Positions 36,691-63,573 of a stretch of DNA of 64,000 bases are shown here, piece by piece. A program made the translations under genes and the position numbers. The stretch spans positions 6,365,989 through 6,429,988 of the forward strand of contig OZ020518.1 of assembly GCA_963971425.1 (NCBI GenBank), written 5' to 3'. Position 1 is the first letter of the stretch; each line of letters starts with the position of its first letter. Origin of the DNA: Bryoerythrophyllum caledonicum (Eukaryota > Streptophyta > Bryopsida > Pottiales > Pottiaceae). The notes below the pieces were generated by a model. The model did no database searches and was not told the DNA's origin. It saw only the letters and a list, made by a program, of their open reading frames with translations.

Positions 36691-36801
36691 AAGGATCCTC
36701 GGGTAGGATCCTACTTGGCCCGGGTGGGAGAAGGATCCTTGGGTAGGATCTCACTTGGCCCGGGTGGGAGAAGGATCCTTGGGTAGGATCCCACTTGGCC
36801 C
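36691..36801. repeat. 40-bp tandem repeat in element C
   Basis: Nearly three copies of a 40-bp unit beginning AAGGATCCTTGGGTAGGATC and running on through ACTTGGCCCGGGTGGGAG, at 36,691, 36,731 and 36,771, in the 3' non-coding part of element C. Confidence 0.9.
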
Positions 36802-37161: not shown

Positions 37162-37415
37162 AGACATCCGCACAAGGGACCACCGACGCTACTCCTTTCC
37201 TTCAGAGAACAAAGTCCTTCTTTTTGTACCTCCAATAGACATCCGCACAAAGGGGGTTAATTAGATCTCCTTCCTTCTCTCAAGGTAACCCGAGCTGTTA
37301 GAGTACTTCCTAGTTATAACAACATAGACATCCGCACAAGGGATCAAACGAGGTCCTACTCAATCCTTAACACATAGTATGGGATTCAATCCTTGCCAAT
37401 AGACATCCGCACAAA
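37162..37415. repeat. Dispersed AGACATCCGCACAA phrase in element C
   Basis: The 14-mer AGACATCCGCACAA occurs four times, at 37,162, 37,237, 37,326 and 37,401, each followed by A/G-rich AGGG. The spacing is irregular (75, 89 and 75 bp). It is probably an RNA- or protein-binding phrase of the element's 3' region, comparable to the repeated phrases of A and B. Confidence 0.85.
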
Positions 37416-40289
37416 GGGAAAGACTGAAACTTAGACTTGACGCTTAAGGTAAGGTAATTCTTCTACGAATCAACCGTCTGACCAAAGGATAGTGTATCCA
37501 GAATCTGAACACGCCTTCACAATCGGCTACATCCGCCACCGATACGTCACACAAGGCGTACCAAGACTCCTTCCTCACTCGTCATTCCCCCCTCTTCCTC
37601 CTTTAAACATTTGTTGTCTCACCTGTTATTCCCACCCTACCTTAACTAGTTCTATGTGATGGCACAAGAAAACAACAACAAATATTCAACTTCAGATTCA
37701 CGCCTCTCCAACCCTCTCGCTATCTCACCTGTTATTCCCACCCTATCTAACTATGCTAATTGATGGAGCAAGGAAACAGCAACGAGAAGGTTAGAACGAA
37801 CTGAGGAGCGGACTACTTGAAATCGCACTCACAATCATGTATAGAATTTAAGCTCTCCAACCATAGAAGGCTTTGAGAGCGTAGGTTTAGAATTAAACTG
37901 AAAGCAAATACACATCAAGCAGTGAAGAGAAGTGCCAAGAGGCTCCTCACTTATACTGCCAAGAACTCACACAAACGCCAAAAACAAACGATACCTTCTA
38001 ACAGCGGCCTTAACTACCCTTGACGGCGGTGGCCGTCATTCCCCACTAACTTCTTGTGTCTAGTCAGAAGGTATCTTATTACACAAATCCCAAGGCAAAA
38101 TCAAGTCAAACCGGGGGCCAAATCTCGGAATGAACAGTGACCTACGAATCAAGAATCTGACCCTACTTCCGGGCCAATTCCTCTAGTCTCTTCCTCTCTT
38201 CCCTCCTCCTGCGCTTCTTGGAGCTCTGGCTCATAGTTGGGGTGGGCGCAGCCGTCGCAAGCACTACCAAAGGCGCTAACATATCCACAGAAGGCTCTGA
38301 TTGAGTAGCAATTGTCCTAAGCAAGGTTTCCCTAGAAGGCAAAGAGGTATCCGGGCCATCCGGGGTGAGTGGCGCGGTAGTCATGCCCGGATGAAGCCCG
38401 GATTGTGTCAAGAGGACCGATACCTGACTCCGAGTTCCCATGATGACATCTTGTTTGGATGTCTGTCCTAGAATATGTAAGTAAGCGGAACTCTCACTTG
38501 CGGTCTTCCCGAGATGAAGCACGCTCTGCAAAGGAACTACAGCCGGTGTAGTGCAAGCGGGGTCAGTGAGTGGCAGTTGGCGAGGATGGACTCAGAGTGG
38601 AGGCTCCATGGCAATATCTGAGCTTTCCTTCCAACCGTTCTGCGTCTGTGTGGTGACTTCCGAAGGAGATGGTCCTGCAAAAAGTCTCAAGCTCGGGAGC
38701 TGAGAGGGCAGATCCGGGCTGTCAAGATTCACTACTTCCTTCTCCTTCCGTGGGCCGTGGTCCCCTGAGCCACGCTCCTCCGGATCGGTCTCAGAGCCGG
38801 AATCTCCATCTTTATCGGAGCTGTCGGAGTCTTCCACAAACTTGGATAGGATGTGAGTGAGATTTCTCACCAACAATCTCATGTTGGCATAAGCCGCCTT
38901 AACCTTCACTATGTGTTCCATCATGAAGGCAATCACCCTCTTGCTGGAAATGTGGTCATCCCTCTCCAATCCGGCATCAAACATCTTGGCCTTTAGTACC
39001 ACATTTGCGGATAAGTGCAATGCCTCCTCTACATGCTATAATGCTGCCGCTGAGGCGTTGGCTTGGAAAAGAGCCTCCTTGCAACTCCTCCGCCTCCAAT
39101 GCCCGACTCTTCATCTTTGTCATATCAAGCGTGAAAAGGTTGACCTTCTGCTCCATGATGCGGAGATCACCAGCTCCTCCAATCTTCTCTTTGATTGCAG
39201 TAATCAGTCCTTCGCGCGGAGGAAAGTCCACCAAGCTGTTCATTTGTCCCAAAGTCCTATCCACGTCTTCCACAAACACACAAAGAGCTTCTATCAGCTC
39301 GTAGGCCGTGTAAGTCTTCCCTCCGAGTTGCGCCGGTCCGATCACCGTTGGCTGCGGCACGGACTGCTGCGCGGGTATGGGTGGAGGATGCTCCTCCCTG
39401 TCTCTACCTCTGGCCCTTGGGAGGTGGTAGAGCCTCCTCCTCGGAGTGTGATGAGCTGCTCCCTCCCTCAGATCCTCGCTCGGGCTCTGATTCCATCCCC
39501 TCGAACTTCTTCATCATGAATTGCGTTCCATACGCCATGTCCTCCTCGGGAGTAGTCTCTTTGAAGTGGTGATATAGGTGAATAAAAAATGGGCGGAGGG
39601 GTGAGCGCTTGACATTGTGGACACTCCTCATCAATCTGATCACCATGTCCTTCACAATGATGGCCCAATTCACCACCCTTTCCCCAAGATAGGAACCATA
39701 CTCGGTGTTAGCAATAGTGACTGTGACTCGGGTGGGTTTCTTAGGGTGTAAGATCGGCACGAGGAATGAGAAGATCCACCTCGCGCGGGGGTCCAGGAAA
39801 TCCTGTACCTCAAAACCATTCTTGGCGTCCTTGGTGCAAAATCGTCCCTTGGCATACTCTTCCCTCTTCAAACTTGTCCATCTTGCCCCTTGTCGTGGAA
39901 AGCCATACACTTCTTGCCATCTTCCCATGGTCCACCTATCTGGGCAAGCCCGGATGCTATCTCCTTCTGGTTCCGGTAAGGGGTCCTGACGCATCTCGTA
40001 TACGGTGGACTCAACACAGAAGCTCCAACAGAAATCAATAAGGGAGAGGCAACCCATCCGTAGAAGATCCTCCTTGAGTTTGGTGAGCTCAAGGGGGTCT
40101 TTGGGGATGACGGGCGCAATATCCTTCTTCATTAAGGTGATTAGATTCAAAGAGGGTCCCACCGCCATTTGGTCATGGTAGGGATGCCTTGCCTTCTTCT
40201 TCACAAAATGTGCGCTGCCTCCATATTTCCAAGCTTGCTTCCCCTTTGCTAGTGTTGGTCCTCCCTCTCTTGTTCCTCTCGTTTTGGGT

Positions 40290-40770
40290 TCAAGGCTTTC
40301 CTTGCTCTCCGAGCTCTCGCTTCTTACCGACAGTTGCCCCCGGCTTTGCCTTCGGGCTCCTCAACTGGTCTCCTTCCTTATTCAGAGCTCCTCCTTCGGG
40401 CTCCGCAGTTGGTCGCCTCCGTGGTTCAACGCTCCGCCTTCGGCTCCGTTGCTGGTCGACTCCTTGGTTCAAGACACCGTCCTCCGCGTTCAGGGCTCCG
40501 GCTTCCTCGTTCCGGGCTGCCCTTACTCGCCCTCCTCACCGATAGCTGCCTTTGGGCTCTACCTTCCGAGCCTCGCGGGTTGACTTCAGGGCTCCAGCTT
40601 CCGCGTTCCGGGCTGCCCTTGCTCGGGCTCCTCACCGATAGCTGCCTCCGGGCTCCACCTTCCGGGCTTACAGCTAATCTTCTTCCTCCTTCAGAGCTTT
40701 GCCTTCTGGGCTCCACCTCCCGGGCTCACAGTTGATCTCCTTCCTAGTTCAGGGCTTGATGGCTCCTTCC
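40290..40770. repeat. Imperfect tandem repeats in the 5' part of element C
   Basis: A phrase of the type CTTCGGGCTCC...CAGTTGGTCTCCTTCC is repeated many times with variation over about 480 bp, giving proline/serine/arginine-rich frames on all strands. These frames are by-products of the repeat. Confidence 0.75.
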
Positions 40771-41469
40771 CCTTGCTGGTTGCCTCTATGTGGTTTGGGG
40801 TCGAGGGTGGGGTCCTACGCTTAGGTCTAGGCTCGGGCCATAGGTCCTTCCTTGTTCCTCTTAAGGCTTTTATAATAGCCCCTTATTCCTCCTACCTTAA
40901 TCTTTCCTAAAGGTTAATCCCAGATTAGGCTAATCCTCAAACTTAGCTATTTTGCTTAACTTTAACACCCGTAACTATCTAACTAAAAAAATTTAAAAAT
41001 TCGTGGTACGAGACTAGGGTTCCGGCAGCCGGAGTCTTGCCCATCTTCCCCGCCATCCGGCCCCACCTCTCGATGTGCTTGCGCCTCGCAATCGTTCCCG
41101 AAACCCTGCACGCACTGACCTCACAAAGACCCTCGTTTTTAGACTACTTCTGTACTAGAGAGTCAGAAGACAAAAGGCGCAGAGAAGCAGAAGAGAGTAG
41201 AGAGCGCAAGAAACGACAAACGAGAATGATGGCGCCGTCCACTGGCAGACGTGTTATAAATCTCGCACAATGTACGAATACCGTTGGGGGTCATGACGAT
41301 GGTTCCGGATCCGGATATCGTCCGGTCCAGAACAACCGGTTCCGGACTCCATTGTACTCCGGTTTCTGGACTTCCGGAAAAGCACCGGAACTGTCATGTT
41401 TAAGGATGCTGGTTTAGCAGCGAAACCTTAATCCTTCCTAGGACCTATTTATGCTATAAAAACAAAGCG

Positions 41470-42870
41470 TACTACCTAATTTTTTTAATTTTCTTCCATT
41501 TCTTTTTGGATTTAGTGCTACTGTCCGGAAGCGAGTAGGAACGCCTTCCCACAGTAATACTATCGATAATAATACTTGTCATTGATGGAACCATCAAACA
41601 CTTATGTGGAGTATGCATATTGGTTACCTCTAGGTGCAGTTGTTTGAGAGTGATGAAAATTTCTTGTAATATAAATTCAAGTCTTACTGCAACTTTAACA
41701 GATAACTGGAGCTCGATATGCCTTTGGGATAAGTTGTCCAGGTCATCATGGCTGGCCGTAGCCCAGGGTGTAGATTTGGCCATGTGGCCGTCTTGGTGGT
41801 CCTCGCCTCCACATTTGAGCCCCTGGCATGCACCACTAGGGGGCTCCCCTGCCCGAGCGCCGTGTCCCCTTCCTTGACTTGATGACTTCTGAGTTGATAT
41901 ACCAAGTGAAGCTTGCTTGTTGAAATTTGCTAACAACGCTTTATCCTTGCCAGACAATTGTATCCTATGCTCGCATCTATTGTGCTCAGAGGACGTTCAA
42001 AGGACATTGAGGGATCGAGGTGAGTTAGTGGCTGTACATTGCTCTTGTGCAACGGTCACGAACTCTTCAGTACGATTTGGTTGAAGTTGCGGTCGTTCAC
42101 CTAATTATCCATGTTGCTAAGGTGGTTTCTTAGTTCGTGAGCCTTATTGACATACTCCTCTACTAAGCCACCTTCTGCCATCTTCAACATTTGCAGCTGT
42201 GACATCAGCGTTGGGATTTGGGATTGATCGCCTACTAAAAATTGATCTTTGAGCGCCTTCCATGTTGCCGCCGGTTCTCTGTGTTATGCGATCAAATCCA
42301 TGAGGTTATCACAGATAGATAAAAGTATTAGCCTACATGCTATGGTCTTTCTTTTTTGTAGCTCTATCTCCATAAGGCTTTCTCCATCAAGAATAGCTAA
42401 GTATGCGGCATACGTCCTTGCTTGCTCTCATGGACCACAATTTTTACGCTCACAAGCTCTACACATAGTAGTTGTCTAGACCTCTTAACATATTTCCTTC
42501 TCTCAGGCTTGTATTCTTTGTCATTGTATTCAATGATGTAAGGATCTATTTGCTTGGAAATGTGCACCAATGCTCAAAGCGGTGCTCTATTGTTGGGAGC
42601 AACGCTCTACTAAGACCCCTCTTTTAGTTTGTATCCTATTTTTTACGTTAGACTACTATTCTAACTCTCAGCTCGTCTGTCATGCTCCAATACCATATTA
42701 AAACTAATAGAACAACATAATGGAACAACAAAAGAGTTGCGCAAGTGCTCACTAAGATTATGACTCGATAGATGTCGACTATATATGCAAGGGCGACATT
42801 GAACAAATAAGCCTGATGAATGATAAAAGCTAAAGTAGATGAATGTACAAATAGAACTCACCGTCATTCG
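41470..42870 (-). mobile_element. Ty1/copia-type gag remnant (fossil)
   Basis: The minus strand carries a gag region of the UBN2/copia type: the words ALKDQFLVGDQSQ and MAEGGLVEEYVNKAHELRN match the usual W-x-L-x-x-F and S-V-x-E-Y-L blocks, and a cysteine/histidine cluster near 41,780-41,830 recalls the zinc knuckle. No protease, integrase or reverse transcriptase was seen, and no terminal repeats were recognised. It looks clearly broken and old, with several breaks. It abuts the 5' side of element B. Confidence 0.55.
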
Positions 42871-46697: not shown

Positions 46698-46780
46698 CCA
46701 TGGAAACTTGCGGCAGCAACCTACTTTACTGATGAACTTTTATAATTAGGATTCAATGGAGAAAGTGAATTGGTTTTGGG

Positions 46781-47535
46781 CCCGGTCACTACAGTCAATC
46801 CGGGTTCGCGGTGTCAGGGCCCGGTTTTAGCCCTGACACCGCGAAGAGCGGCCCTTCTCCCCAAGCGCCTTTTCGCCTTCTTCGCACGATAACGTCCACT
46901 TTCGCCCTCAATTTTTTCGCGCGGCCCGTATCCCTTCTCAGCATTCTCGCCGATAGCCCCTTCTCCCCCCGCCTTCTTCAGATCACCGAAACCCCCTTCT
47001 CGCCGCGCCACGTGTACTCCAGAATGACCCGCCCTTCTCGGCGGATGCCGGCGCGAAGTGTCATCCACATCGTTTTGTACTACGCCGTCTTTCGCACGAT
47101 CTATTGTACCGTGTAGCACCCTGCTGGAAGGGAAGTGCTTGTCTCCGCGTGAATGGAGTTCCTCGATCTCAATCTCCCCATCCAAGACAGGCCGAATGGG
47201 AATTCTGGCGAGACGGCAGCACCAACTGTTGCCAATAACGGGGCAACAAGGAGGAAATGGAGGCATCTAGGGAGAAAGAAACCGGCTGGCGTGCGTGAGA
47301 AGGGGGTGGAGGACCTTGATGCCGCGTTCCGGGAAGGCCCGCATGCAGACTACCTGAAGAAACACGGTCACAAGGTTCTTCGGATGCGCGATTCATTACA
47401 GAACCCTCCTCCAGGAATTTTGAGGTGGAAATGTTTTAGGTGGAACATGGAGGCCGAGAATGATACGAGGTTTGTAGAAGATCCGCAATCATCGAAGAGG
47501 AAGCAGTCCAAGCTTATCGCCTACATTCTCTCGGA
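46781..47535 (+). repeat. MULE left terminal inverted repeat
   Basis: It pairs with about 56,150-56,791. It includes a palindromic GGTGTCAGGGC...GCCCTGACACC near the tip, an ATG at 47,153 and the start of the transposase reading frame, so the repeat contains promoter, leader and first coding exon. The left copy has about 100 bp (roughly 47,395-47,490) that the right copy lacks. Confidence 0.85.
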
Positions 47536-50031
47536 TAGGATCTCGGATTTCGTGGAGGGTGAGCAGTCTGGCCGAAAGGATGTAGAGACTACCTTCGTTC
47601 GCGACAAGAACGACCCCACAAACGTCGACGAGAAGACGCACTATCGGTGGAACTGCCACATGGAGTACCAATGGTAAGTAAATCGCGACCTCTGATATCA
47701 CGATATGCACGGTAGATCTGCTTATCGGTTGTGCCGTTACATCTCTTCAGTACCGCATGTATCTCTAATGGTCAACGCGGATAAGCAGATGGCGTTGTCA
47801 ATACGGTCCCGTAGACAACACGGACAAGATCCAAGCTATCACGCCCGAAATGACACCAACGCCATCGAAATACAATCACAAAGGGAAACAACTTACGTCC
47901 GGCACTGGCCAGAAAGGCCCTCGTGCCACTGATGCGAAGGAGGGGGGCTCTATGAAAGTGGGCTGCCAATGTCGATTCTACGTAAAGAGGTACTATTTTC
48001 TGCCATATATCGCCGAGATAGGGTACTTTTGCTCGGAACATGTCGGCACACAAGGCCTCATCGTCCACGATAAGGACAATGTGCAGAGGGGAAAGCTCCA
48101 CTTTCGGAAGTACATATCGGAGGAAGTAAGGCTTTGGGTTCTGAGGCAATTTGAAGAGCAAGTTCCGATGGCAGCTATAATGCAGAAGCACCAGAAGCTG
48201 GTACTGAAGGCACGGGATGAGGGCACTCTTACGCCTTCTCGGGATTGTTTCCTTAGCATGGAGGACATCCGCAACATATGCGGAGTCCGTGCGCAAGAAC
48301 TATACAAGTAACACGACAACGACGCTGAGAGTGTGAGAATGTAGGTCCGAGAAAACCGAGGTACGGTTTTTTACTACCAAGACCCGGGCAGCAAGGTCGA
48401 CGGAGTGTTGAATGCCGATAACGTACCCTTCGTAATTGGGATTCAAACCCCATTTCAGACGCACATGATGCTGAAATACAGTCACGATAACATTATTGCT
48501 ATAGACGGGACATTCGCAACGAACAACAAAAAGGTACACATACCTTTACCGTGCTCCATGTAGGGTCCGTAAAAAAATTAGGAGCACTCATTCTCATACC
48601 GCTTAATTTCTTGCTTGCGTGTCCAGTATCCGCTCTTCACGATGATGGAATTCGACGAGTGGAGAAACGGTGTTCCACTGGCTTTCGTGATCACTGCGAA
48701 ATCCAAACAAGCAGATCTCGTGCCTTGGATGCGCGCTCTGAAGCAGAAGTTGGTGCAGATAAGGCCGGACTAGAGATCCACTGCCTTTGTACTTGACGAC
48801 GCCGATAATGAGATCAACTCTCTTCGGTAAGCAATTTAGCATTCTTAAGTTATCGGGTGACGGGCTTCAGCGAGTTGTACTTATCGGCTTGTCGGGTTAT
48901 CGCAGGGAGGTTTGGCCGCACTCGCATCTATTTCTATGTCTCTGGCATGTTCGTCGAGCGTGGCAGAAGAATGCATGTGCTAAGTTGAAAGACATGGAGA
49001 CGAGGGCCGGAGCCTTGCAAATTGTGGGTTCACTTATGTACGTATCGGAGACACCTAGTGACTTCCAAGACCCTTCGGCGCGAGCTCCCGGCGATAAGGT
49101 GTGGAATTTGGTAGAGTGGGTGCGACACATTTACGGCGAAGCTAAGGCTCTCTTGCGAGACGCTGATGCATACTGGAAGTACTTCGACAAGGAATGGCTC
49201 CCGAAAATCAAAATGTGGGTTGTGGGAGACCGGAAAATCCCCCATGCTCGCCAGGACACCATTGCAGCGATCGAATCATACCATTCTAACATGAAAGCAG
49301 TGCTCCGGCAATCCAAAAGGAAGCTTATCGGCCGAAGGATGGACTCGCTTATTTATGAGCTCACTGGAAATGTCATCGAGAAGTATGATTATAGTCACTG
49401 GTGTAAGCTAAACGGTTTTATAAAGAACAAGAGGCAGCGGCAGATCATGGTCAATGCAATCAACCAAGCAAATACAATTCCCGATAATATGGTCACCTTG
49501 CCCGAGTCGTCGGGAGGTCCTGCATACGTTAAATCCTCGAATAAGAGACACATTACGTATGCGGTATACAATCCATGCACCGAATGGGCCATCTGCCAAT
49601 GTGTTCATTCCCAGAAAGGTAACATCTGTAAGCACCAGGTTAAGGTCCTGAAAATGACAAGACCTGACCTGGCCGAGGGAAAAATTGCTAGATATCTAGG
49701 CTCCCTTCACGGCACAATCCAAGGAGGAATGACGAATCTTCTCCGCCAAGACAATGGTCGACACCCGAATACCGAGGGCTTCCCCGATAATGATGTCCCC
49801 TCCGATACCGGAGCCGGAGATGTAACCCCAGTGGCTTCCAACCTTCGAGAATTAGGCGAGACATGGGCATGCGACTTTGATCGTATGCATCAGCTTGTCC
49901 TGAAGCTACTCGAGAAGGCTTATCGCCAACCGTTGCTAGCAAGGCACTTGGATGCAGCTTTGCGTTACACCGATGCCACCCTCTCAAGGTTGGAGGCCGA
50001 AATCGAAGCCGGAATGCTTCATCCACTCTAG
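47153..50031 (+). pseudogene. MULE transposase (DDE, SWIM zinc finger), disrupted
   Basis: Catalyses cut-and-paste transposition of the element. The order is: MEFLDLNLPIQ start (47,153); a basic linker; an N-terminal Cys/His module KVGCQCRFYVKR...YFCSEHV (about 47,955-48,050) of the FAR1/WRKY-GCM1 kind; AIDGTFATNN with catalytic D at 48,504; a GT-AG intron 48,534-48,626; VLDDADNEINSLR with the second D near 48,795; an intron 48,827-48,905; WPHSHLFLCLWHVRRAW; AIESYHSNMK with catalytic E at 49,273; and the SWIM motif CQCVHSQKGNICKH near 49,597-49,638. The C-terminus ends GMLHPL at 50,031. Damage: TAA at 48,309, TAG at 48,342 and TAG at 48,771, plus a frame change before about 47,850. The catalytic residues survive, so the loss is recent. 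A 414-codon frame remains open from 48,787. Confidence 0.88.
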
Positions 50032-50547
50032 GATATAGCTGCACCGCTCCCCACAAATAAAGACGGCCTTGGAATGAGGCTCCGAAGGTTGCATGACTTC
50101 TTGGATTCCAGAGGTTTTCGGGTGAGGTCCGTTCCAGCTAGCAAAAGACTACTTCAAGAAACGACTTAGGTTATCGGCTCCGATGTGGATGAGTATAAAG
50201 GGCAGAGGATTTCAGCTGCAAACCTGCGTTGATAACCATTAGTAATCTTATCGGTGGAATACTGCCGATAAGATGCTCTTAGATTAAGTTCCATGCATCG
50301 GCTGAAATTTCCACTGAAGTGATATTTCTTTAGTTTGAAAGTTAAAACTCAACATTCAACATAATCAGCAAAGACTGGATTTTAAGTTTCGCTTACAAGC
50401 CTCTGTAAGGGGGTCCCAAAATCCGTTTACGTACGCTATTGAAAAAATTGTCATTTACAATGAATGAAATGTACAACATCGGCATCCTATTAATCTGTAC
50501 AAATTCCTGGAGTCTATCGGCTGTGTACAACACCCCCCCCTTATCGC
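50032..50547. terminator. Convergent 3' spacer of the MULE with a perfect hairpin
   Basis: It lies between the 3' ends of the transposase (+) and protease (-) genes. ATCTTATCGG (50,245-50,254) and CCGATAAGAT (50,265-50,274) form a perfect 10-bp stem with a 10-base loop, built from the element's own dispersed word. A role in 3'-end formation or protein binding is inferred from position only. Confidence 0.45.
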
Positions 50548-53489
50548 CTACTTCTTCGTCTTGGTGGTGCCCTTCGGTTTTCTCGGTTTTTTCGGGCTTT
50601 TCGGCTCGGTTGACTTCTTCCGCCTTCTGAGATGAACTGGTGGGTTTGTGAGCACGTTGAATCCCTGAAGTGCACGATCCCCCACTGTCTCCGAAATACC
50701 GAGAACTGGGACTTCCTTCTTCTTCGCCATCTCTGTATCGGCTTCCACGACAACTACGTCCGGACTTCCGCTTCCGAACTCCACCGTATCCTGACCACAT
50801 AGATTAAGGGCATCGTGGAACGGAAGCGGTGCGACAATCTCCGTGTAGAGCGCTTGTATGAACCATCGGTACGACTTCTTCCCGTCCCAGTCCAAATATT
50901 TTGTCCCCATTGTCACTGTCTTCTCCTCCGCCTCTTTGCGCCCACCACGTGCGATAAGGTACTGCCAGAAGGCCAAGCCTGCCATGAAACCACACTCCCA
51001 GCTTTCTTTTTGATTAGGCAGTGGCAACCTTATTGGCGATCGACTCTGCCATTCAGTCCAACTTCAAAATCCGATCCTCACGCCCTTCGCGTTTGTCCAT
51101 CCCATGTGTACAAGGAAGATGAAGTTCTCCACTTCTTGACCCTTGTGCATGCCTTTCGCTGGGTCCAGGTGATACGTTCGCCTTTGCTCCACGACAAATA
51201 CGCTCCAGTGACCCTTATCGTGGTAAGGGACGATAAGGGTATTCGGCGTCTTGGTGGTGCTACGAAACGAGCGGCTGGGAAAGCTCACGATGTCATCCTA
51301 GTCCTTCCCTTCATCCGCCAGATAGCACTGCAAGGTCGCCGATAACCAGTTGTGCGTGTTATGATACTGGATTCGAACATGCTCCTTCGCCCTGTAGACG
51401 ACATGCCTATGGGGGAAATCTAGAAATGTGCCTTCCATTTCCCGCTTGTCCTTTAGCACGCAATGCCAGCCCTGTAGTGCAAGCGAGACATCCACGGCTT
51501 GCCGAAGGTCTGGACCGAAAAACCTCATACCTCCAGTCAGGTCCTTTGGGTGAATAAAACCAGGCCTGCAATTCAGAAGAAAGGGGATGTTTGACAACAG
51601 GTGCCGATAAACAACATGTGTCGGAGAACACGATAACATAAACGACGACACTCACCTTCGTTTTAGGACCTCCACAAAAATTCCGAGGTTCTTCTCTATC
51701 GTGGATGCGTCATGCTCCTCGGCTTTGCAGCAGAGCGAGGGCTCTTTGTCCCAGGAAACACCGTCTGAAGTACATACTCCGCGATTCTTCTCCAACATGC
51801 ACGTATTCGCCGCCTTCTGTTCTCCTCTAAAACCGTTTTGAACACGCTCTTCGAGTCCAGGATAAACCCAAATACTGGTCAACTGCGATTCCTATGCTTC
51901 CTTGATAAAGCACAATGCCAGTCTGATCTCCTCAGGGTCCATCTCCTTTGGAGAAGGTTTATCGGGCTCTAGCGGAGGAGCAGCCTGAACGGGTCCTAGC
52001 GGAGGAGCAGGCATATCGAGCTCTGGCGAAGGAGCAGGCTTATCGGGCTCAGATATCAGAACAGGGCTATCAGGATCTGGCGCTGAAGCAAGCTCAACGG
52101 GTTCTGGCGGACTGGCATGGTTGTGGGACTCTAGCGGGCTAGCAGGATTCTCAGGAATTTGGCAGGTTAGCAGGGTTCTCGGGATCTGGCGGACTAGCAA
52201 GGTTCTCGGGCTCTGGCGGAGGAGCAGGGTTATCGGGCCTTGGTGGAGAAGCATAATCGGAGTCCGGAGAGGGAGCCTTCTCTGGGATTGGATGACTTTC
52301 CAAGGGTGTCACGCAAGGCTCCTCGGAAACCACCGGGGGTCTGTCAGTAGAGTCCAGGTTTTCAATACCTTGACTCGACAGAGGGAACGATAGACGTTGG
52401 GGTTGCATGCTATGTTCCGTCTCCCCCGTAGCCCCGTGTACAACATCAAGACGAGGGGTGTCGAATTGAGATAACCCCACCGGTGTTTGTGAAGACTCCG
52501 GAATGCTGAGGGTATGGTCATTCATTGCTTGAGTCCACGAAAACTCCGTGTGAGGTGGGTTATCGGCGGGACTCACCGGTGACTTCATAGCTGTAGTAGC
52601 GGGCTCTTCATGGAGTGTATCGGGAACACCTCCCTGAAGTATTTCATCCCTAGGGTGCTCTTGTGCTTCCTCCAGACCCTTATCGGAGAATCCTTCATCC
52701 AGCGACTTATCGGAGAATCCTTCGTCATCGTTACTCCTCGGGTACTGATTCTGGATGCGGAATTCATTTGAGGTTCCCTCGTCCATGTGAAGAAGGGTGG
52801 CTGCACCCTCGAGGTCCCTTGTTCGGGTAGATGTCTCCCGCTGAACTTTGTCATGTGAAGTCACTGGATGCCCTTCTTGTCGATCCCACTCTGTCGTCAC
52901 CAGACGCGACACAACGTTCTTGCAATCTGCCTCTGCAAGTTCCCTTTCGCGTGCCCAGGTAGGGTCTACAGTGCCTACAAAAGGAATATCGTTTAGACAC
53001 GGGGTTATAACGGAAAAACCAAGAATGAAGAAGAAAACAGTAAGATGAATGACGGGGTTATCGGATAATCTTACGTGGAACGAAGCCGGCATACATGAAG
53101 TCCTGATCCTCCCTCGCCAAGCAGTTCTCGTCCAGGGTATTCCAGTGTTCGTAGGTACCTTTATCGGCAGCACACCACTGTCGAACGAAGTCCTCTGGGT
53201 GACTCCTTGCTATGTCCATGACAGTGCGAGCGTGGACCATTGCGATGAAGCGTATCACAGAATCTCATCCGCCGTGCTTATTGTCGCGGAGCCGCGAGAA
53301 CGCCTGCATTATCGGGAGGTGCTGTTCGGATGCATCCCTTCCGAAGAGGAAGGGACTCAGGACTTCGTACATTTGAGACGGCCCATCCCAATTTGTCTCT
53401 GGAGCGTCCACGTACATTGCAATGCTGGCAGGCCGGGGGATAACGCTAGGGTTGCACATATTCCGGCCCCTGAAAAACAACGGAGTCAC
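50548..53489 (-). pseudogene. MULE-encoded Ulp1/SENP-like (C48) cysteine protease, disrupted
   Basis: The family cleaves SUMO or related ubiquitin-like tags in the nucleus. Catalytic order H-D-Q-C is complete: KGHWSVFVV (H), TYHLDPAKG (D), PLPNQKESWECGF (Q and C), all within 50,930-51,250. Upstream, KDLTGGMRFFGPDLRQAVDV begins the protease exon after an acceptor at about 51,576; its donor partner is GTGAGT at about 51,655. Before it come a helical/acidic part (WARERELAEADCKNVVSR), a proline-rich linker of PAPPPEP/DPENPA-type repeats (51,950-52,260), and a first part with RGRNMCNPSVIPRP (53,460). The tail is Lys/Pro-rich and ends GTTKTKK. Damage seen: in-frame stops at 51,064, 51,298, 51,892 and 53,265 and a frame change in the linker at about 52,150. 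An intron at about 52,980-53,070 contains CGATAA words. It may begin further upstream with the 196-residue frame. Confidence 0.75.
51950..52260 (-). repeat. Proline-rich coding repeat in the protease linker
   Basis: About eight imperfect units of 30-36 bp of the form GGTTATCGGGCTCTGGCGGAG encode PEPDKPAPP-type phrases on the minus strand. Units containing TTATCGGG show how the dispersed word has spread within coding repeats. Confidence 0.75.
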
Positions 53490-53507
53490 GTTAGCCGATA
53501 AGGGACG

Positions 53508-53600
53508 GAAAGAGACGATAAGGGACGATAAGGGACGATAATGGACGATAATGGACGATAAGGGACGATAAGGGACGATAAGGGACGATAAGAGATGATA
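53508..53600. repeat. 10-bp minisatellite ACGATAAGGG
   Basis: About nine tandem units of ACGATAAGGG with rare G-to-T changes, between the 196-residue frame and the protease gene, probably in an intron or leader. Each unit contains the element-wide CGATAA word. Confidence 0.92.
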
Positions 53601-53630
53601 GGGGACAAGTCTGTGGGGAGAAGGGAAAAC

Positions 53631-54221
53631 TTAAACCCAAGAGAGCCCGTTGCAAACAAAGTAAGACTTCAATAGCATAGCTGGAGCCGGCGTCGGGAAA
53701 CGATCGATTCTGATCCGCGCTAGACGGTGCACGACCTCTCGAGCCTGATCAATGTTGTGCGTCCACGGCAGTGGGTGCACGAATGGTTGAAGAAATTCGT
53801 TCATCGCACAATACCCGAAGAGGTTGTTGAAGTCCCACCGAATAGCCTCTCTCTCCACCGACCTTTTGGCATCAAATTTCCGAATCTCGTTGGAGACTAA
53901 CTTCTCCCTTAACCACTTTGTGGTCTCCGCCTCGGTTGTATGCCTAGCTACATACTCGTCGCACTCCTTTTCGTGCGTCATGTATGCCCACGTTCCCATC
54001 ACTGCCTCTTTCCGAAGCTCTTCCGACGCACCGCTTACGTGATTCTTTGCCAGGTTGCAAAGGGTTGTCAGCTGTGGAAGCGAAACCTCGTTATCGGCGA
54101 AGCCGACCCCTTCGGAAATGCAGGCACCGAGAGCCTGGTAGAACTTGCCCTGGTGGCCTCCAGACTCCACCATATCCAAGACGTATTTGAACAGGTCATC
54201 TTCGTTCGATAAACTATCCAT
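53631..54221 (-). CDS. MULE accessory protein, 196 residues, unknown
   Basis: An uninterrupted frame with an ATG at 54,221 (MDSLSNEDDLFKYVLDMV) and a stop at 53,631. It is mostly helical, with acidic and aromatic residues (ESGGHQGKFYQALGACISEG, WDFNNLFGYCAMNEF, PFVHPLPWTHN). No domain is recognised. It ends just before the minisatellite and may be the first exon of the protease gene, or a separate protein. It starts 63 bp beyond the end of the upstream accessory frame. Codon use and the presence of TTATCGG match the rest of the element, so it belongs to it. Confidence 0.55.
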   Translation of the reverse strand: MDSLSNEDDLFKYVLDMVESGGHQGKFYQALGACISEGVGFADNEVSLPQLTTLCNLAKNHVSGASEELRKEAVMGTWAYMTHEKECDEYVARHTTEAETTKWLREKLVSNEIRKFDAKRSVEREAIRWDFNNLFGYCAMNEFLQPFVHPLPWTHNIDQAREVVHRLARIRIDRFPTPAPAMLLKSYFVCNGLSWV

Positions 54222-54283
54222 CGTGATCTTTCATTCTATTTCCTTATTCTATTTTTTGATTCCACTTCATTCTATTCAATCTT

Positions 54284-55657
54284 TCATTCTATACTATCGA
54301 GCAGACCATGCTTGAGGAGTAGGTACAGCGGCGTTATCGGTATCTTCCTTTCGAAGGAGAGGACCCTCCGAAGCGGGAAAATGCGCTCAGCGTCCTCCTG
54401 CGCCTGCCGTATCATTTCGGCCCTCTCCAACTCCAAATCTTGCTCCCTTCTACCTTTGATCGGCAGATTGAGGCGCTTATCGGGATTCACACCTTCTTTT
54501 TCGCCTGCCCAAAATATCGTGGCCATTGTCAGCGGCTATCGAAATTCCACCTGGGCCGAGGTTATCGGCCAGCCAATGTCAGAGTCGGAAGGTCTCTCGG
54601 CAATACTGGTCTCTATCAACCTCTATGCAGCCTCCGGGGCTCAAGGCCTTATCGCCGCAGCAGTCTCGTCTACAGACATTCCCGTCAGCCTTTTCGCCAC
54701 TGCTGGAGGTTTGACAGCTTTTGTCTTCTTCGTGGACTCTTCAAATCTTGCCTTCTTCGTGGCTTCTTCAGCTTTTGCCACCTTCTTCTTCGGTACAGCT
54801 TGTTTTGCACGCTCAGACTTCCGGTGCACGATGGATAAATCGCTCTCTCTCTTAGGCGCGAGTGCGGGCTTCCGGACCCTCGATACCGGGTTAACGGCAT
54901 CAGAACTCCTCGAGGCATCATCTCCGGACCGAAGAACGTCCTTATCGTCGTAAACAGCTTGAGTGCCTACGTTATCGGCCTCGTGATCTGTGTTGAGATC
55001 TCCTCCCGACTCTACCGACGAAGAAGTATCGTCACTGGAAACCGCTTTCGGGGGCGGAGGCCTTTTCCGTGAAGGCGCCGCGGTACGTTTCTGTGGACGG
55101 TTCTCCTCTGCCGCCTGTGCAACCCTCTTGCCGCGCTTATTTGGGACTCGACTCTTCTCCTCCTCCTCATTATCGGCAGCCTTCCGAGGCCTCCTCTTTG
55201 TGGCTATCGGCTCTATGGTGGCAAAAACCTCAATGGCTTCTTCCTCCGACCCGCAATCCCGAAGTCGTGCCACAAAGTTTGTCACATCCCTGACTCCCAA
55301 ATTGGGATACGACGGCATCTTCACGCCTTTCTTCCCCTTCCCTTCGCACAATGCATGGATGCGGTGGAGGTTGAACATGTGCTTCTGGTGCGTCGTGTTG
55401 CAATGTATGCACAGTATCTGCTTGGGGCCGGTTTGTCCAGCCGGTACGATGGGCGAGTCCGGAAGATGCAGCTCCAGGATAAGGTCCCTCGCCTCCATCA
55501 CCTCCCAACTATTGCGCCAAATGTGGTCATTCTCAATGACAAATAGCTACTCGATCCTCCCCGTTTCCTCGTTGTAGGTGGGCGGAATCCCTTTCCTAAT
55601 CTCCACCGGGATCTCATCAAATAATGGCTTGCAGAAACACACCGCCCGCTTTGGCAT
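54284..55657 (-). pseudogene. MULE accessory protein with CxxC-H-C finger and basic region
   Basis: The ATG at 55,657 gives MPKRAVCFCKPLFDEIP. Then follow ENDHIWRNSWEVMEARDL, a metal-binding-like CIHCNTTHQKHMFNLHRIHALC, then NLGVRDVTNFVARLRDCGSE. A long Lys/Arg/Glu-rich stretch with several nuclear-localisation-like clusters (KRGKRVAQ, RKRPPPPK) runs to 54,641. A further helical frame at 54,284-54,526 (REQDLELERAEMIRQAQEDA) is probably the last exon. The finger resembles BED-like or zinc-ribbon DNA-binding modules, so DNA or chromatin binding is plausible, but the function is unknown. One in-frame TAG (55,547) lies upstream of the finger; translation could still begin at a later ATG (55,501). 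Confidence 0.55.
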
Positions 55658-55724
55658 TTTTACGGTCCTGCAAGGTAGGACATTGCCGAACATGAAACCT
55701 TATCGCCCGAAACGATTATCGGAA

Positions 55725-55757
55725 ACCCTAAAACCCTAAAACCCTAAAACCTGGACG
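55725..55757. repeat. Short CCCTAAAA tract in MULE leader
   Basis: Three or four tandem copies of CCCTAAAA, an 8-mer variant of the plant telomere unit, in the leader upstream of the accessory gene. Such 'telo boxes' are known in plant promoters. Too short to be a former telomere. Confidence 0.6.
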
Positions 55758-56082
55758 GTTTGCAAAATATCCTACATCTTCACACAGCTTACTTTCCAAC
55801 GCCCCACATTTGAAATGGAATGGAAGAAGGACCGTGTGCATCACCGAAAAGAAATGGAAAGAAAGAATGACAGAGAACTTACCGAAATGGAATGAAATGA
55901 AAAGCATGAAAGGCAGGGAACTTACCGAAAAGTTCAGCCGGCGAATTCAAGGTTTTGAAGTAGCGATCGCAGAGCTTGGACTTCCTGGATATGTCGTTAG
56001 ACGGCAAAAAACACAGTTCAAAAGTGTTGAAAACGGTGCCGCCACACAAAATTTTGCCATGCCTGGTTTAGGGTTTCACGTT

Positions 56083-56125
56083 GATGGTGATGGTGATGGT
56101 GATGGTGATGATGATTATTTCCTAC
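56083..56125. repeat. (GATGGT)n microsatellite
   Basis: Four tandem GATGGT hexamers followed by GATGATGAT. On the minus strand, within the TIR-borne frame, it encodes a run of ten histidines. Confidence 0.85.
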
Positions 56126-56149
56126 GCCGCCTAAACTGAGTAGCCAGGA

Positions 56150-56791
56150 CCTACAATCTGAGGGAATGTAGGCGATAAGCTTGGATTGCTTCCTCTTTGA
56201 ATGGCGCACCCGAAGAACCTTGTGACCGTGTTTCTTCAGGTAGTTTGCAGGCGGGCCAAATCTAAACGCGGCATCAAGGTCCTCCACCCCCTTCTCACGC
56301 ACGCTAGCCGATTTCTTTCTCCCTTGACGCCTCCATTTCCTCCCTGCTCCCCCGTTATCCGCAACGGTTGGTGGCGCCGTCTCGCTAGATTTTCCATCAG
56401 ACCTGACCTGTATGGGGAGATTGAGATCAAGAAATTCCATTCACGCGCAGACAAGCACTTCCCTTCTCTTCACAATGATGGTGCGAAAGACGGCGTAATA
56501 CGAAACAATGTGGATGGCACTTCGCATCCGCCGAGAAGGGCGGGTCATTCTGGAGTATACGTGGCGCGGCGAGAAGGGGGTTTCGGTGATCCGAAGAAGG
56601 CGGGGGGAGAAGGGGCTATCGGCGAGAATGCCGATAAGGGATACGGGCAGCACGAAAAAATTGAGGGCGAAAGTGGACGTTATCGTGCAAAGAAGGCGAA
56701 AAGGTGCTTGGGGAGAAGGGCCACTCTTCGCGGTGTCAGGGCTAAAACCGGGCCTTGACACCGCGAACCCGGATTGACTGTAGTGACCGGG
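56150..56791 (-). repeat. MULE right terminal inverted repeat with duplicated first exon
   Basis: Reverse complement of the left terminal repeat with scattered differences and a ~100-bp deletion. It carries its own ATG (56,440) and the same start MEFLDLNLPIQ, then VREKGVEDLDAAFR and KKHGHKVLRVR, ending near SKRKQSKLIAYI. It therefore probably supplies the promoter for the minus-strand genes, and could express a short free N-terminal peptide. Confidence 0.8.
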
Positions 56792-56967
56792 AGTTTTGGG
56801 CATCAGCATGACCTATTGATTAGATTTACTTTATATGTTTGCCTTTATTTTTTCTTCAGTTAACAATGTTTTTCTAAAAATGCTTCCCTAAGAGGAAAGA
56901 GAGGAGATAGAAGTTGATATTTTTCTTTGCAGTGAAGTAGATCACTAGAAATTTCATACTTCCTTTT

Positions 56968-57670: not shown

Positions 57671-58786
57671 TTAACCCCTAAAGGCCCATGACATTTTAGC
57701 ACCCAAACTCACTAATAACTGCCAATTACAATGCATTCAACACAAAATGCAAATAAATATAGTTTTTACATATCTAACCATAGGATCTTGTAGTAGGATT
57801 GTACAAGTGCGTGTAGTAAAAAAATTGTTCAGTTTGACCGCACGGATGGAAAATTATTAACCTTTGAAGTGAGACATAAACTCTTCTTGAGGTCATACTA
57901 AACACCTTCCACAAACTTCGACCACCTTCTATGGTATTTTTTTGCACTACGGTCCATGATTTTCTAATTTTAACTTATGAAGGATCATGTGAGGCACATG
58001 TTCACCAAATTTCAGAAGTAGAAGAGGAGTAGAAGATGTCTTTAAAAATCCTACAATGCAACTATGTGTTGAGAATTAACAATACACTTCAAGTTTTGCA
58101 TATATCATATCCTTGTCATATTTTTGAAATAAAAAAATATGTACAATAGATGCAAGGATTTCCATATTTTTTTCCAAGAGGAAGTTTTTATTTTTTTAAA
58201 TGGACAAAAATTCAAATTTTTATTGAATTTAGAATCAACTAAAGTACTGCTATCCTAGTTGTATGTCAAGAAGAAGAAGAACGCCGGTTCCCGGTAGGGG
58301 GCCCGACGTGAATGAAGTGTCTGTTCACTCCATTCCTAAGACCATGCCCACCAGGCAAGGAATTAGTAGTATGGAACTACTTCTCCCTCTCGAGGGTAGA
58401 CACTATGTGGCAAGTAACAGAACACTCGAGAAACCGACTGCAACAAAGACGGGCCTAGGCATAGAGAGGCGATTGGAAGAGGAGAGAGAGAGGAAGACGA
58501 GAGTAATTTTCAAATGTAAACATTTTAAGAGGTAAGAGGTGGTCTAAGGCGGGAAGTGTGTGGGTTGTTATATGTCACACTAAATTGCTGCACTATTTGT
58601 ATATGTTACCGAAAAAAAATTATAACTTTTGAACCATAATTTGGATTTCTACAAAAAATTATGTCTACGGGAAGCTAATAGAAAGTTGTCCATTCAAACA
58701 AAAAATCTTAGAACATCATGCCTAAATTTGAAATTGTGGAACCTTACCTAAACTCAAAATGAGCCCAATGGGCCTTTAGGGGTCAA
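57671..58786. mobile_element. TTAA-flanked MITE with an internal insertion, 1.1 kb
   Basis: The left tip is TTAACCCCTAAAGGCCCATG and the right tip GGGCCTTTAGGGG followed by TCAA (one base off TTAA). The interior is nearly the reverse complement of the 61.48-62.30 kb copy. A 0.15-0.3 kb sequence at about 58,266-58,550, absent from that copy, is an inserted repeat of the 58/59/60-kb family. Confidence 0.75.
58266..58420 (+). repeat. 58/59/60-kb repeat family, copy 1
   Basis: It starts AAGAAGAAGAACGCCGG, passes ATTAGTAGTATGGAACTACT and ends near GTAGACACTATGTGGCA. It is shared with 59,103-59,300 (inverted) and 60,205-60,345 (direct). It has the size of a SINE or short element end. No A-tail or clear pol III boxes were seen, so the class is open. 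Confidence 0.6.
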
Positions 58787-59102
58787 TATGCCTCTTGCAA
58801 TACCAAGGCATATTTTGGTGTTTCATAGTCTTTCCTATGTATTTGTACTATCAAGTAGCAAGGTAATATAATATGATGTGCATGTAAGAAACTTTTTGTG
58901 AAACAAAATTAAAGTTATTCAAAAGATATAAACTTCATGCCTTGAACGTCACCAAGGCTTGGGGTGCCAATAAAAGGTTAAAAACTTTGAAAACAACCAA
59001 TCCATTCCAAACATGCTAGACCTATCATGAAAACTCACTAAACACTTCATCTCATACACCTCTTTTTTGCATTATTGGTTCTCTGTGCTTGATTACTTGT
59101 TA

Positions 59103-59300
59103 TGTGGTATCATAGTGTCTACCCTCCAGAGGGGGAAGTAGTTCCATACTACAAACCCATGTCCAATGGAATTTATAATCAATGGAAATTTATAACCAAT
59201 ATCCAAATTGAAAGATAATCTGATACTTAGTGGTGGAACAAACAAACACTTTATTCACGCCAGCCCCCCTCCGAGGACCGGAGTTCTTCTTCTTCTTAAA
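59103..59300 (-). repeat. 58/59/60-kb repeat family, copy 2
   Basis: Inverted copy: ATAGTGTCTACCCTCCAGAG, AGTAGTTCCATACTAC, then GTGGTGGAACAAACAAACAC and finally GGAGTTCTTCTTCTTCTT. The outer sequence includes the tract TGTTTGTTCCACCACTA that is also found at 9.4 kb. Confidence 0.65.
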
Positions 59301-59340
59301 AACTTTGAGGTTAAGCAAGATGGAGGAGGAATACCATAGG

Positions 59341-59421
59341 TTAACCTCTAAAGGCCCAAAAGTCCCCTTAGGAGACTGTAAGAGAGTCACCTCGGGGGAC
59401 TCTAGGGCCATTAGGAGATAA
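59341..59421. mobile_element. Very short TTAA-type foldback, 80 bp
   Basis: TTAACCTCTAAAGGCCC on the left pairs with GGGCCATTAGGAGATAA on the right, and the middle (CCTTAGGAGACTGTAAG, then CACCTCGGGGGACTC) folds back further. Probably a shortened member of the TTAA family. Confidence 0.5.
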
Positions 59422-60204
59422 GGTCGGATTTGGCTTTAATTAATTCCAAAAATGAATGCCAAATTATTTGAAAATTTATTAAGTGAGAATGTCCGTAAAG
59501 TAGATTTTGATTGATTATCTTTCAGTTTGTGGATTGCCGACTCCGGTATACCACTTGTCCATGGACACAGATCATTGTCATCATTGTGAATTCAATGCCT
59601 TGTATTGGAGTGTGGCTGGCTGGTCTTGTGCCTATTCTCCAATGGCCGCATCATGTAAGTCAAGTGTGAAATTACTTTGCAAAGGAGGCGCCTTCAGTAG
59701 GTTGGTTGGATTTATTAGACCTATTTTCACCATTCAATTGAACTTCCATTCTAAATTTGAATTTGGAGGTGTTCAATTCCATACAATGGTATTTTCCCAT
59801 TTGCAAAATGACCAAAATTGGATATGACTCAAGTCTACCAATGAAGTCAAGTTGATCCGAATTCAATGTGGCAAATGGGCATATAAGCAACTGAGCCATG
59901 TTCATTTGCCCCCATGTCTTCCAATGGAGGTACAGTCTTGAAAATATATGTACTCCAATGGCATCGATTGGTGAGTAATCCACCACTAGAAGAGCCTCAA
60001 CAAATCCACCAAGAGTTCCCTCTGGGAATCATCCAATCCATGCTCCTTGCCCATACATGAATGACCTTGGCAAGGATATTTTGCTATGACCAAATCTACG
60101 TTGTCCAACTTCCATCAATTGTCGTCATTGATCAGAATCACATCCCATGGCACCTTGCCATAACAATCGTGAATTGCTGATGGTGCTAGCTGCTTTCCAT
60201 ATAA
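59422..60204. other. Spacer, no gene recognised
   Basis: A 106-codon plus-strand frame (59,507-59,827) and an antisense partner show no known domain and are treated as chance. Confidence 0.4.
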
Positions 60205-60345
60205 AAGAAGAAGGAAAAGAAGAACTTTGGTTCTTGACGTGGGCTGGTGTAAATAAAGTGTTTGTTTGTTCCACCGCTAAATCAATGTCCACCAGACATA
60301 GGTTTAGTAGTATGGAACTACTCCCCCCCTCTTGAAAGAAGACGC
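60205..60345 (+). repeat. 58/59/60-kb repeat family, copy 3
   Basis: GAAGAACTTTGGTTCTTGAC, then GTAAATAAAGTGTTTGTTTG, TTTAGTAGTATGGAACTACT and GAAGACGCTATG follow the order of copy 2 read in reverse. Confidence 0.65.
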
Positions 60346-61478
60346 TATGTAACCAATAATCAATAACCAGGAACCAAGAACCAATGACCAACTAGAGCCT
60401 AAGGGCTCAATTCCAAGAGATCATCTATAAAACTTAAATGTGTGTTTTTGAGAGGTTTTAAGGGGTATCATATACTTTGGAAGAGGTTGGTTATTTTCAA
60501 ATTTTTGTTTGTATAGAAGTATGGACATTGCATGTTGGATAGCAATGGTATTAATTTTTGTGAATATATTTTTAATTGAGTTAATGGAGATATTGAATGC
60601 ATTTATGAGACTATCATAGAGGAGATATATGTAGTAGCTCTAGCTCGAGTGGCAATGACGATAAGGGAGTCACCTATTTAATTAAAATTTTAATTTAATT
60701 TTAATTTAAACCACATTGAAGAGTTGTAATGTCATTAATAAGTGATTGGTATTTATTAATTTTGTTTTTGATTACTTCTCGGAATTATTTGTCATTACAA
60801 TATTTGAATTCAATAAATTAGATAGTTCGGTTTGAATATATGTGATCCAATGGGGGGTCTTTATTATGGAGTAGTCCTTTGACACATAATATGTATGGTT
60901 TAAATTAGGCATTACAATGAAATCTTTGGATTCCACATGTACAGTACATGGAAGTAGCCATGGAGGGACCGTGTTTTCTTGTGGGTTGTTGTTGAAGGTT
61001 TCAAACCAAGATTTGTTTAAGGATACAATAGAATTTTTCTAAAAGTACCCAATATCGCAATACCTCGGATTAGATCCTGTATCCTTAGTTTATTAGTTGG
61101 CCTGAATGTGGCCTCTAAAAATGTAGAACGCAAAAAGATTGGATGACCACGTGATGCTCTAGCCGGATTTATGGTGCAGTCATGAATGGAGGAGGCTACA
61201 TAAGGATGGATAAATCATGCACATGTGCATGTAGAATCTAGGTTTAGGAGCTTAGGTGGAGCTAAGTAACTATTAGATATTAGAGCTGCGAATAGTTATT
61301 ATGGTATCATAAATAGTTGAGGAGGCCAATGCCTTTCGTTTGCGCCATAGATTTGTGACAATGTTGAGACTATCCTTAATTTTAATTGACTCACTCCTAA
61401 TAGATATTAGCTGTGGAAAAGGTAGGTAGTTTCTCAACTATAATCCTTAACATCAAGTATTGAAGAGCTTGGTGATCT
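60346..61478. other. AT-rich spacer, no gene recognised
   Basis: Nothing recognised on either strand. Confidence 0.5.
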
Positions 61479-62295
61479 TTAACCGCTAAAGGCCCAATGT
61501 CCTCTCTGGGAACAATTTGAGTTTTAATGGAGTCCCACAATCTCAAATTTAGGCATGATCTTCTGAGATGTTTTGTAGAATTATCATATTTTTAATTGCT
61601 TTCCGTTGACATAATTTTTGTAGAAATCCGACTTACGGTCCAAAAGTTACAAACATATTTCAGTAACATATACAAATAGTGCAACGGTTTAGTGTGGTAT
61701 ATAACAAATATTGTAGCAAAACTTTAGTCGATTCTAGATTCTATAGAAATTCGATTCTTTATCCATTTAGAAAAAACAAAAAAACTTCTTGGAAAGGGAA
61801 TGGAAATCTTTCCATCTACCGTACGGATTTTTGAATTTCAAAAATATGAGAAGGATATGATATATGCAAAACTTGTTATTGTATTATCTATTCTTAGCAC
61901 ATACTTGCATTGTAGGATTTTTAAAGACATCTTCTCCCCCTCTTCTATAGTTTCTAAAATTTGGTGAACATGTGCCTAACATGATCCTTTTTAAGTTAAA
62001 ATTAGAAAGTCACGGCCGGTAGTAGAAAAGTTTGCCATAGAAGGTGGTCAAAGTTTGTTGAAGGTGTTTAGTATGACCTCAAGAAGAATCTATGTCTCAC
62101 TTCCAAGGCTAATATCTTTCAATACGTGCGGTCAAACTGACCAAAATTTTTACCACACACTCGTACAATCCTAGTACAAGATCCTACACTTACAATGTAA
62201 AAAATGTGTTTATTTGCATTTTGTGTTGAATGCACTGAAATTGGCAATTTTTAGTGAGTTTGGGTGCTAAAATGTCACAGTCCTTTAGGAATTAA
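61479..62295 (-). mobile_element. TTAA-flanked MITE, 0.8 kb
   Basis: TTAACCGCTAAAGGCCCAAT at the left and CACAGTCCTTTAGGAATTAA at the right. It is inverted relative to the 57.67-58.79 kb copy, with shared blocks such as TTGGTGAACATGTGCCTAAC and TCCTAGTACAAGATCC. Non-coding. Confidence 0.75.
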
Positions 62296-62579: not shown

Positions 62580-63573
62580 AGGGCCGGTTTACATTAGGCG
62601 TGGGGTCGGATGGAAGGCCGGCCGGATTTGCCTTCAATCTAGCCTTCAATCCGGCCCCAATTCTTCCATCCGGCCCCAAATAATGTAAAGCATTGAGGCC
62701 GGATTCTAGGGCCGGATTTTAAATTCACCATCTTGGCCCTAGTCAATGTTAAGTATTGGGGCCGGATTCTAGGGGCTAAATTTCCAATTTTTAAGTGTCT
62801 TAGATTTTCATAAGACTCAACTAAAAATTGTAGAAGCACATGTGTCAAGCTTTTGTCTTTGTTTCTTTCCTAGTTTAAAGAAAAATAGGTTTCATATATT
62901 TATTTTATATGTTTTCTTTCCTTATTACATTTAAAATATAAAATAAATAAGAGTATTTTTTCTATTTTCATTTTTTTCCCCCTTTTCTCTTATTTTTGAT
63001 AGGTCTAAAATAAAAGAGAGTTTTTTTTTCCATATACATGCAACTTCTAATTCCTCTTCCTATTTTGACTATTGGAAAAAGAGTTTTATTTACTTTATTT
63101 GGCCAAATCCCTTTTTTGGATGCATATCCAAATGGAAGGAGTATTTTTACTTATAATTTAAAAATAATAATAATAATGATTTTAAAAAAAATCGAAATAA
63201 AAAAATATTTTTTATAAAAAAAAAATATTTTTTCAAAATAAAAAAATAAAATTTCAAAATATAAGAGAAAAAATAAAATAATTTTTTTACTGATTGACGG
63301 GAGCGATTTGAAGGATCCAACGGAGGAACCGAATCCGGCCCTAGATGGGAGTTTGGGCCACCTCAAACCTCGTCCCAATTGCTCCCTTGGGGCCGCATGG
63401 TTTGGCGCCAAAACCATGCCACCTTAGGCAACACGTAGGATGAAATGTGGTTCCGGCCGGCCCCAAGTATAAAGCTCTTGGGTTGGATTTTGAGAGATTG
63501 AAAGATCCTATTGGTTGAAACTTGGAGAGTTCTGGCCAAGCCTACAATCCGGCCCCAAGTATAAACTGGCCCT
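62580..63573. mobile_element. hAT-like element, 1.0 kb
   Basis: The inverted tips are AGGGCCGGTTTACATTAGGC and AGGGCCAGTTTATACTTGGG (the latter read from the right end). GGCCGGAT words recur in both subterminal regions. The interior is very AT-rich, with long A/T runs at 62,940-63,290. The phrase GGTTTGGCGCCAAAACCATG near 63,400 resembles the 12-13 and 21 kb hAT-like copies. No transposase. Confidence 0.65.

Follow-up and report, generated by a model that had tools for sequence, protein, structure and literature searches.

Along a 64,000-nt stretch of contig OZ020518.1 from Bryoerythrophyllum caledonicum (positions 6,365,989 to 6,429,988; hereafter the window, numbered from its first letter), one hexamer—CGATAA, or TTATCG on the opposite strand—runs through a single transposable element. 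This Mutator-like element (MULE), at 46781–56791, holds 57 copies of the word (26 CGATAA and 31 TTATCG), whereas the other 54 kb of the window hold 12. CGATAA is a DNA-level signal, not a protein-level one, and the selected unit looks to be the exact hexamer. The word itself looks selected, many times independently, because its excess survives shuffling, its density is equal in exons and outside them, and its flanks are mostly unrelated. We see an even chance that CGATAA is a distributed recognition site at which an element-encoded DNA-binding protein would act, over the whole element, against silencing.

CGATAA is enriched across the element

CGATAA/TTATCG is the most frequent of the element's hexamers. 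A preliminary description of this DNA had put the copies at about 56, with eight in a 10-bp minisatellite and about 5 expected by chance. The total was close to our 57; the minisatellite (53496–53606) contains nine intact words, leaving 48 outside the array, and the chance expectation comes to about 4. Order-1 and order-2 Markov models predict 4.1 and 3.9 for the 48 nonarray words, and 300 dinucleotide shuffles of the element gave a mean of 4.06 and a maximum of 10 (array excluded). In 100 shuffles, no hexamer exceeded 23 copies. Order-3 and order-4 models expect 13.7 and 36.7 words with the array excluded, figures that come from models trained on the element itself, where many of the tetramers and pentamers within CGATAA come from the word itself. 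In the flanks, the 12 copies stand at or below expectation (17.6 for order 1, ~11 for orders 3–4), in keeping with the rarity noted there earlier.

The excess belongs to the exact hexamer. Its 18 single-mismatch neighbors sum to 98 against ~80 expected (order 1), a mild excess only. The common core is CGATAA, preceded by C in 30 of 48 words and followed by G or C in 38 of 48; within 2 bp this C/G preference is weak, and farther out on either side the information drops to near zero. The earlier statement that most copies extend to CCGATAAG or CTTATCGG was therefore too strong: exact CCGATAAG occurs 11 times. Words are spread all along the element, with the lowest density near its terminal inverted repeats (TIRs). 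No preferred spacing or pairing of words was found (7 gaps of ≤30 bp vs. 6.6 expected), and spacing is weakly even (coefficient of variation 0.77 vs. 0.97; P = 0.046; n = 49).

The neighbor counts bear directly on a host-factor explanation, under which a GATA- or I-box-type regulator, for example, reads CGATAA and the element exploits it for its expression or for the timing of replication. The sequence GATAAG is an established promoter element in plants, and AGATAA and TGATAA are the canonical WGATAR-type forms bound by GATA factors. Neither form is enriched, however (2 each in the element vs. ~4 expected), the words show no concentration at the starts of genes, and CGATAA is not enriched in the flanks. 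We regard a host-factor reader as very unlikely. On the neighbor counts, host GATA factors, which the preliminary description had named as candidate readers, are disfavored as the driver.

Element architecture

Judged from its sequence features, the element is a MULE, as previously assigned: it contains a MULE transposase domain (PF10551; E = 4.4e-10, 40.3 bits over a cut-off of 27.6, in hand-joined exons), long TIRs, and a target-site duplication of ~9 bp. The duplication is an 8–9 bp direct repeat, GTTTTGGG(C), identified by eye at 46773–46781 and 56793–56801; at the right end, one base is left unmatched. The TIR arms span ~0.5–0.6 kb, with a 96% match across the outer 268 nt and 87% farther in. 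The features are as follows.

46781–56791, no strand: MULE with 57 scattered CGATAA/TTATCG words, defined by word count, long TIRs, and the MULE transposase domain
46781–47395, plus strand: left TIR, with word 46887 and, further in, word 47514; six GAGAAGGG/CCCTTCTC copies at 46852–47297
47153–50031, plus strand: transposase gene of several exons, with the MULE domain and a SWIM-like CxC...CxH motif (by eye); exon limits set by hand
48829–48903, plus strand: probable short transposase intron, suggested by reading frames, with words 48850, 48881, and 48897, the last adjoining the 3' splice site
50241–50275, no strand: inverted word pair 50248/50266 between convergent genes; its arms, ATCTTATCGG/CCGATAAGAT, match perfectly over 10 bp
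50548–51651, minus strand: open reading frame (ORF) segments tentatively resembling Ulp1/C48 peptidases (PF02902; E = 0.079, below the Pfam cut-off, two joined pieces)
51950–52253, minus strand: 27-bp coding tandem repeat of 11.2 copies; the word is present in three (51959, 52040, and 52230)
53496–53606, plus strand: 10-bp minisatellite CGATAAGGGA, 11.1 copies
53631–54221, minus strand: accessory ORF, with no Pfam match
54641–55546, minus strand: accessory ORF with a CxxC...H...C finger-like motif (by eye) and a basic, acidic-patch tail; candidate reader
56156–56791, minus strand: right TIR, with words 56173, 56632, and 56680; six GAGAAGGG/CCCTTCTC copies at 56289–56713

Just upstream of the MULE's minus-strand genes lies a telomere-like AAACCCTA repeat (3.6 copies, 55723–55751), which may be a plant telo-box promoter element.

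The analysis rests on a single element copy with a damaged transposase. Searches for relatives found none, either of the transposase, the Ulp1-like proteins, and the TIR word in viral contigs or of the TIR pattern in genome contigs; the collections searched were viral and prokaryotic, so absence there says little.

Synonymous shuffling places the signal in the DNA

For the coding test, we used a hand-made exon model of 6.5 kb, its limits set by us and not from RNA. It contains 31 words, compared with 6.1 ± 2.2 (maximum 16) in 2,000 synonymous shuffles that kept both proteins and codon usage. Of 58 slots where the protein permits the word, 30 are filled; since filled slots count as permitted, the proper comparison for this share is with the other 1596 hexamers, scored alike. 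By that measure, CGATAA and the overlapping CCGATA rank 1 and 2 of 1597, and the next independent hexamer reaches 0.40. The CGATAA excess thus survives both the codon and the dinucleotide shuffles suggested in the preliminary description, whose account of words across exons, introns, spacers, and TIRs also holds. Its other suggested check, on frequency across the genome, here covered the 54 kb of flanking DNA.

These data weigh on the idea that the word is a by-product of codon usage or of selection favoring D[K/N] dipeptides in the proteins. In favor of such a preference, 18 of 30 exon words read sense xD[K/N]. It is at odds with the synonymous shuffles, with the 18 words outside the modeled exons at equal density (4.77 per kb in exons, 5.29 per kb in nonexon DNA), and with the use of antisense and other frames: exon words occupy five frame/strand combinations, and the sixth combination would create an in-frame stop codon. 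Word orientation is 7:7 in the plus gene and 21:7 in the minus genes. Codon or protein bias as the sole cause is largely refuted by the synonymous shuffles, and we consider this explanation highly improbable. If an element protein reads the word, codon choice within the element's genes would be giving way to selection for DNA words.

Most word copies arose independently

The flanks of most CGATAA words are mutually unrelated. The exceptions are two TIR pairs; words within 27-bp repeats, at 51959/52040/52230 and at 52680/52707; the inverted pair 50248/50266; and the pair 51215/51231. Minisatellite seeding, template switching, context-biased mutation, or another process of copying or mutation could in principle have scattered CGATAA without selection; in its favor are the pairs with common flanks, the nine words in the minisatellite, three in the 27-bp coding repeat, and two in a second 27-bp repeat. 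Information near zero beyond 2 bp, however, leaves most sites unexplained by the copying of longer units. One-mismatch neighbors are in mild excess only, and we know of no mutational process with a six-base product. Local duplication contributed, but most words must come from independent gain; scattering without selection appears quite unlikely.

A separate word marks the terminal inverted repeats

The TIRs carry a word of their own. GAGAAGGG occurs 13 times in the element and once elsewhere in the window; 12 of the 13 copies fall in the TIR regions, six in each (GAGAAGGG/CCCTTCTC at 46852–47304 on the left and 56289–56720 on the right), and one lies at 53618, just behind the minisatellite. 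It differs by one base from the internal GATAAGGG, so the two words are related. GAGAAGGG is probably an ordinary terminal binding site. Ac and En/Spm have subterminal transposase-binding repeats that are short, element-specific, and confined to the ends; these resemble GAGAAGGG as short repeated words, whereas CGATAA covers the whole element.

This division bears on whether CGATAA is itself a transposase-binding site, spread from the ends over the element as an aid to synapsis or excision and with no anti-silencing role. Transposase sites are often short repeats near the ends, as in Ac and Spm, and a link between the two words is suggested by the single base separating GAGAAGGG from GATAAGGG and by word 56632, which is present only in the right TIR, opposite CCCTTCTCAGC in the left arm (two substitutions, no indel). 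Yet CGATAA is concentrated inside, with 52 of 57 words within 47537–56155, and GAGAAGGG is nearly confined to the TIRs, so that the end-binding job seems taken by GAGAAGGG. Nor is binding throughout a 10-kb interior known to aid excision. On the simplest reading, GAGAAGGG serves the transposase and CGATAA something else; we think a spread transposase site unlikely.

A possible element-encoded reader

We infer that a protein reads CGATAA, that the element would encode this protein, and that its effect would be anti-silencing. Copies of CGATAA would be selected over the whole element, in exons and noncoding DNA alike; a protein of the element family would read them and coat the element from end to end; and the coating could keep host silencing—DNA methylation and linked chromatin marks—off the element. 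Among the options raised in the preliminary description, a binding site for an element-encoded protein, or a self-mark, remains the best, and the reader is putative.

The first candidate reader would be the finger-like ORF at 54641–55546. No informative Pfam or PDB match to it was found, and the single-sequence fold predicted for its first 110 residues was too poor to use (pLDDT 36.7). A BED finger in this ORF was considered and is unsupported: zf-BED was not found in a Pfam search at E up to 10. The comparison is with BEAF-32B, a BED-finger insect insulator protein that reads clusters of CGATA without fixed spacing or orientation (PMC5021357); a reference title in the same source indicates that BED fingers occur in transposases too. 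CGATA is five of the six bases of CGATAA, and BEAF-32B acts in chromatin insulation; it differs in being an insect insulator protein, whereas the finger-like ORF here lacks a zf-BED match. The parallel is a lead for this ORF, not evidence of membership.

Traces of methylation are mixed. Within the element, the CpG observed/expected ratio is 0.97, or 0.91 once the words are removed; 4-kb bins that lie entirely outside the element give 0.39–0.93. These values would fit a young element or a hypomethylated, protected one. TGATAA and CAATAA, the CpG-decay products of the word, total 6 against 6–8 expected. That decayed word forms are not in excess, while TIR CpGs are deaminated, suggests maintenance of the word, in numbers too small to carry weight.

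A strong precedent for whole-element marking, overlooked in the preliminary description, comes from the VANDAL21 MULE of Arabidopsis. The element-encoded VANC21 binds YAGTATTAY, which lies at high density across VANDAL21 in introns, intergenic DNA, and terminal noncoding DNA, and VANC21 removes methylation over the whole element; VANC6 has a different motif (AGTTGTCC/AGTTGTAC) (PMC5735166). Methylation loss in VANDAL21 spreads into coding regions (PMC10398659), and some members of the VANDAL clade have TIRs (PMC6446971). The preliminary description had contrasted CGATAA with the end-clustered motifs of known transposons; the whole-element spread of CGATAA stands, and VANDAL21 supplies a case beyond that contrast (PMC5735166). 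VANDAL21 (Hiun) with VANC21 resembles our element in several respects: both are MULEs with a dense, family-specific short word that is rare elsewhere, the word is partly multiplied by tandem repeats, accessory genes accompany the transposase, and related families use other words.

Several observations weigh against the proposed reading of CGATAA. The VANDAL21 word has nine bases, lies mainly in noncoding DNA, and keeps one orientation, whereas CGATAA is a 6-base, CpG-containing word, as dense in exons as elsewhere, present on both strands, and only partly carried by tandem repeats; VANDALs also typically have missing or short degenerate TIRs, unlike the long arms here. No Pfam match to VANC-type DUF1985/DUF287 domains was found in the ORF pieces scanned, the genes being interrupted. 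Of 61 TIR CpGs, 13 show deamination in one arm, a trace of past methylation of the element that argues against full protection. The transposase has at least one in-frame stop in a conserved region, and conservation of the word would rest on one copy, no other family copies having been found. Finally, the xD[K/N] share of exon words means that a protein-level contribution is not nil, and mean flank identity between words (10.67 vs. 10.00 ± 0.08 of 40 positions) is slightly above random, owing to the weak base preference around the word and to a small number of duplicated pairs.

Another comparison is with the DNA uptake sequences of Neisseria and Pasteurellaceae, which are bacterial, genome-wide self labels at about one per kb or less. 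They share with CGATAA the course of a short word through coding and noncoding DNA; here the density is one per 200 bp within one transposon. Among the titles listed in a limited literature search, none describing CGATAA as a transposon word was found. To our knowledge, the VANDALs of Arabidopsis are the only case of a transposon protein that counters silencing in a sequence-specific way. If an element protein reads CGATAA, the present MULE would be an independent case, in an element with long TIRs, and would make testable how a transposon is protected along its whole length.

Other words and repeats in the window

An unsupervised hexamer scan in 3-kb windows served as a screen for second words. 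Its strongest non-low-complexity signals were the MULE, 27–36 and 40.5 kb (CCGGAA/TCCGGA), a CATCCG/CGCACA repeat at ~36–38 kb, and 60–63.6 kb (CCGGCC). In a repeat family unrelated to the MULE (28000–41600), CCGGA occurs 139 times, scattered, against 30.2 expected from dinucleotides; CCGGAA alone occurs 60 times, against 8.5 (dinucleotides) or 22.3 (trinucleotides). The word is absent from 31830–33200 and occurs once in 36440–38100. A pooled synonymous shuffle gave 10.2 ± 2.9 against 25 observed, with 0 of 1,000 shuffles reaching that count; singly, only two of five ORFs pass (P below 0.02). The CCGGA effect is weaker than the CGATAA effect; a second scattered word of this kind in the window counts in favor of the reading proposed for CGATAA.

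A wider possibility, which we hold as doubtful, is that transposons here carry private, exon-penetrating words (CGATAA and, 20 kb away, CCGGA) that would label all of their own DNA for a cognate element-encoded reader, with coding sequence bent to hold the label. Such words could amount to a general self-marking and anti-silencing code of plant transposons outside the VANDAL clade. Regional word enrichment combined with a synonymous shuffle offers a sequence-only route to such systems in any genome, and the CCGGA family suggests that such a screen would pay off.

The stretches 31830–33200 and 36440–38100 look foreign to the CCGGA family. Inverted repeat arms of ~1.2 kb (30573–31804 and 33187–34404; roughly 72% over the longest match) enclose a 1.4-kb spacer whose sequence resembles a fragment of a broken host gene. 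The CCGGCC copies crowd into ~1 kb (62582–63549), as would the usual subterminal repeats of a small element. At 62582–63570 lies a ~1-kb AT-rich element with CCGGCC-bearing, GGGGCCGGATT-like repeats near both ends; it looks like an ordinary small DNA transposon. Nested imperfect inverted repeats at 57671–62295 (e.g., 57811–58036 with 61933–62158, 84%) belong to a further large inverted-repeat element.

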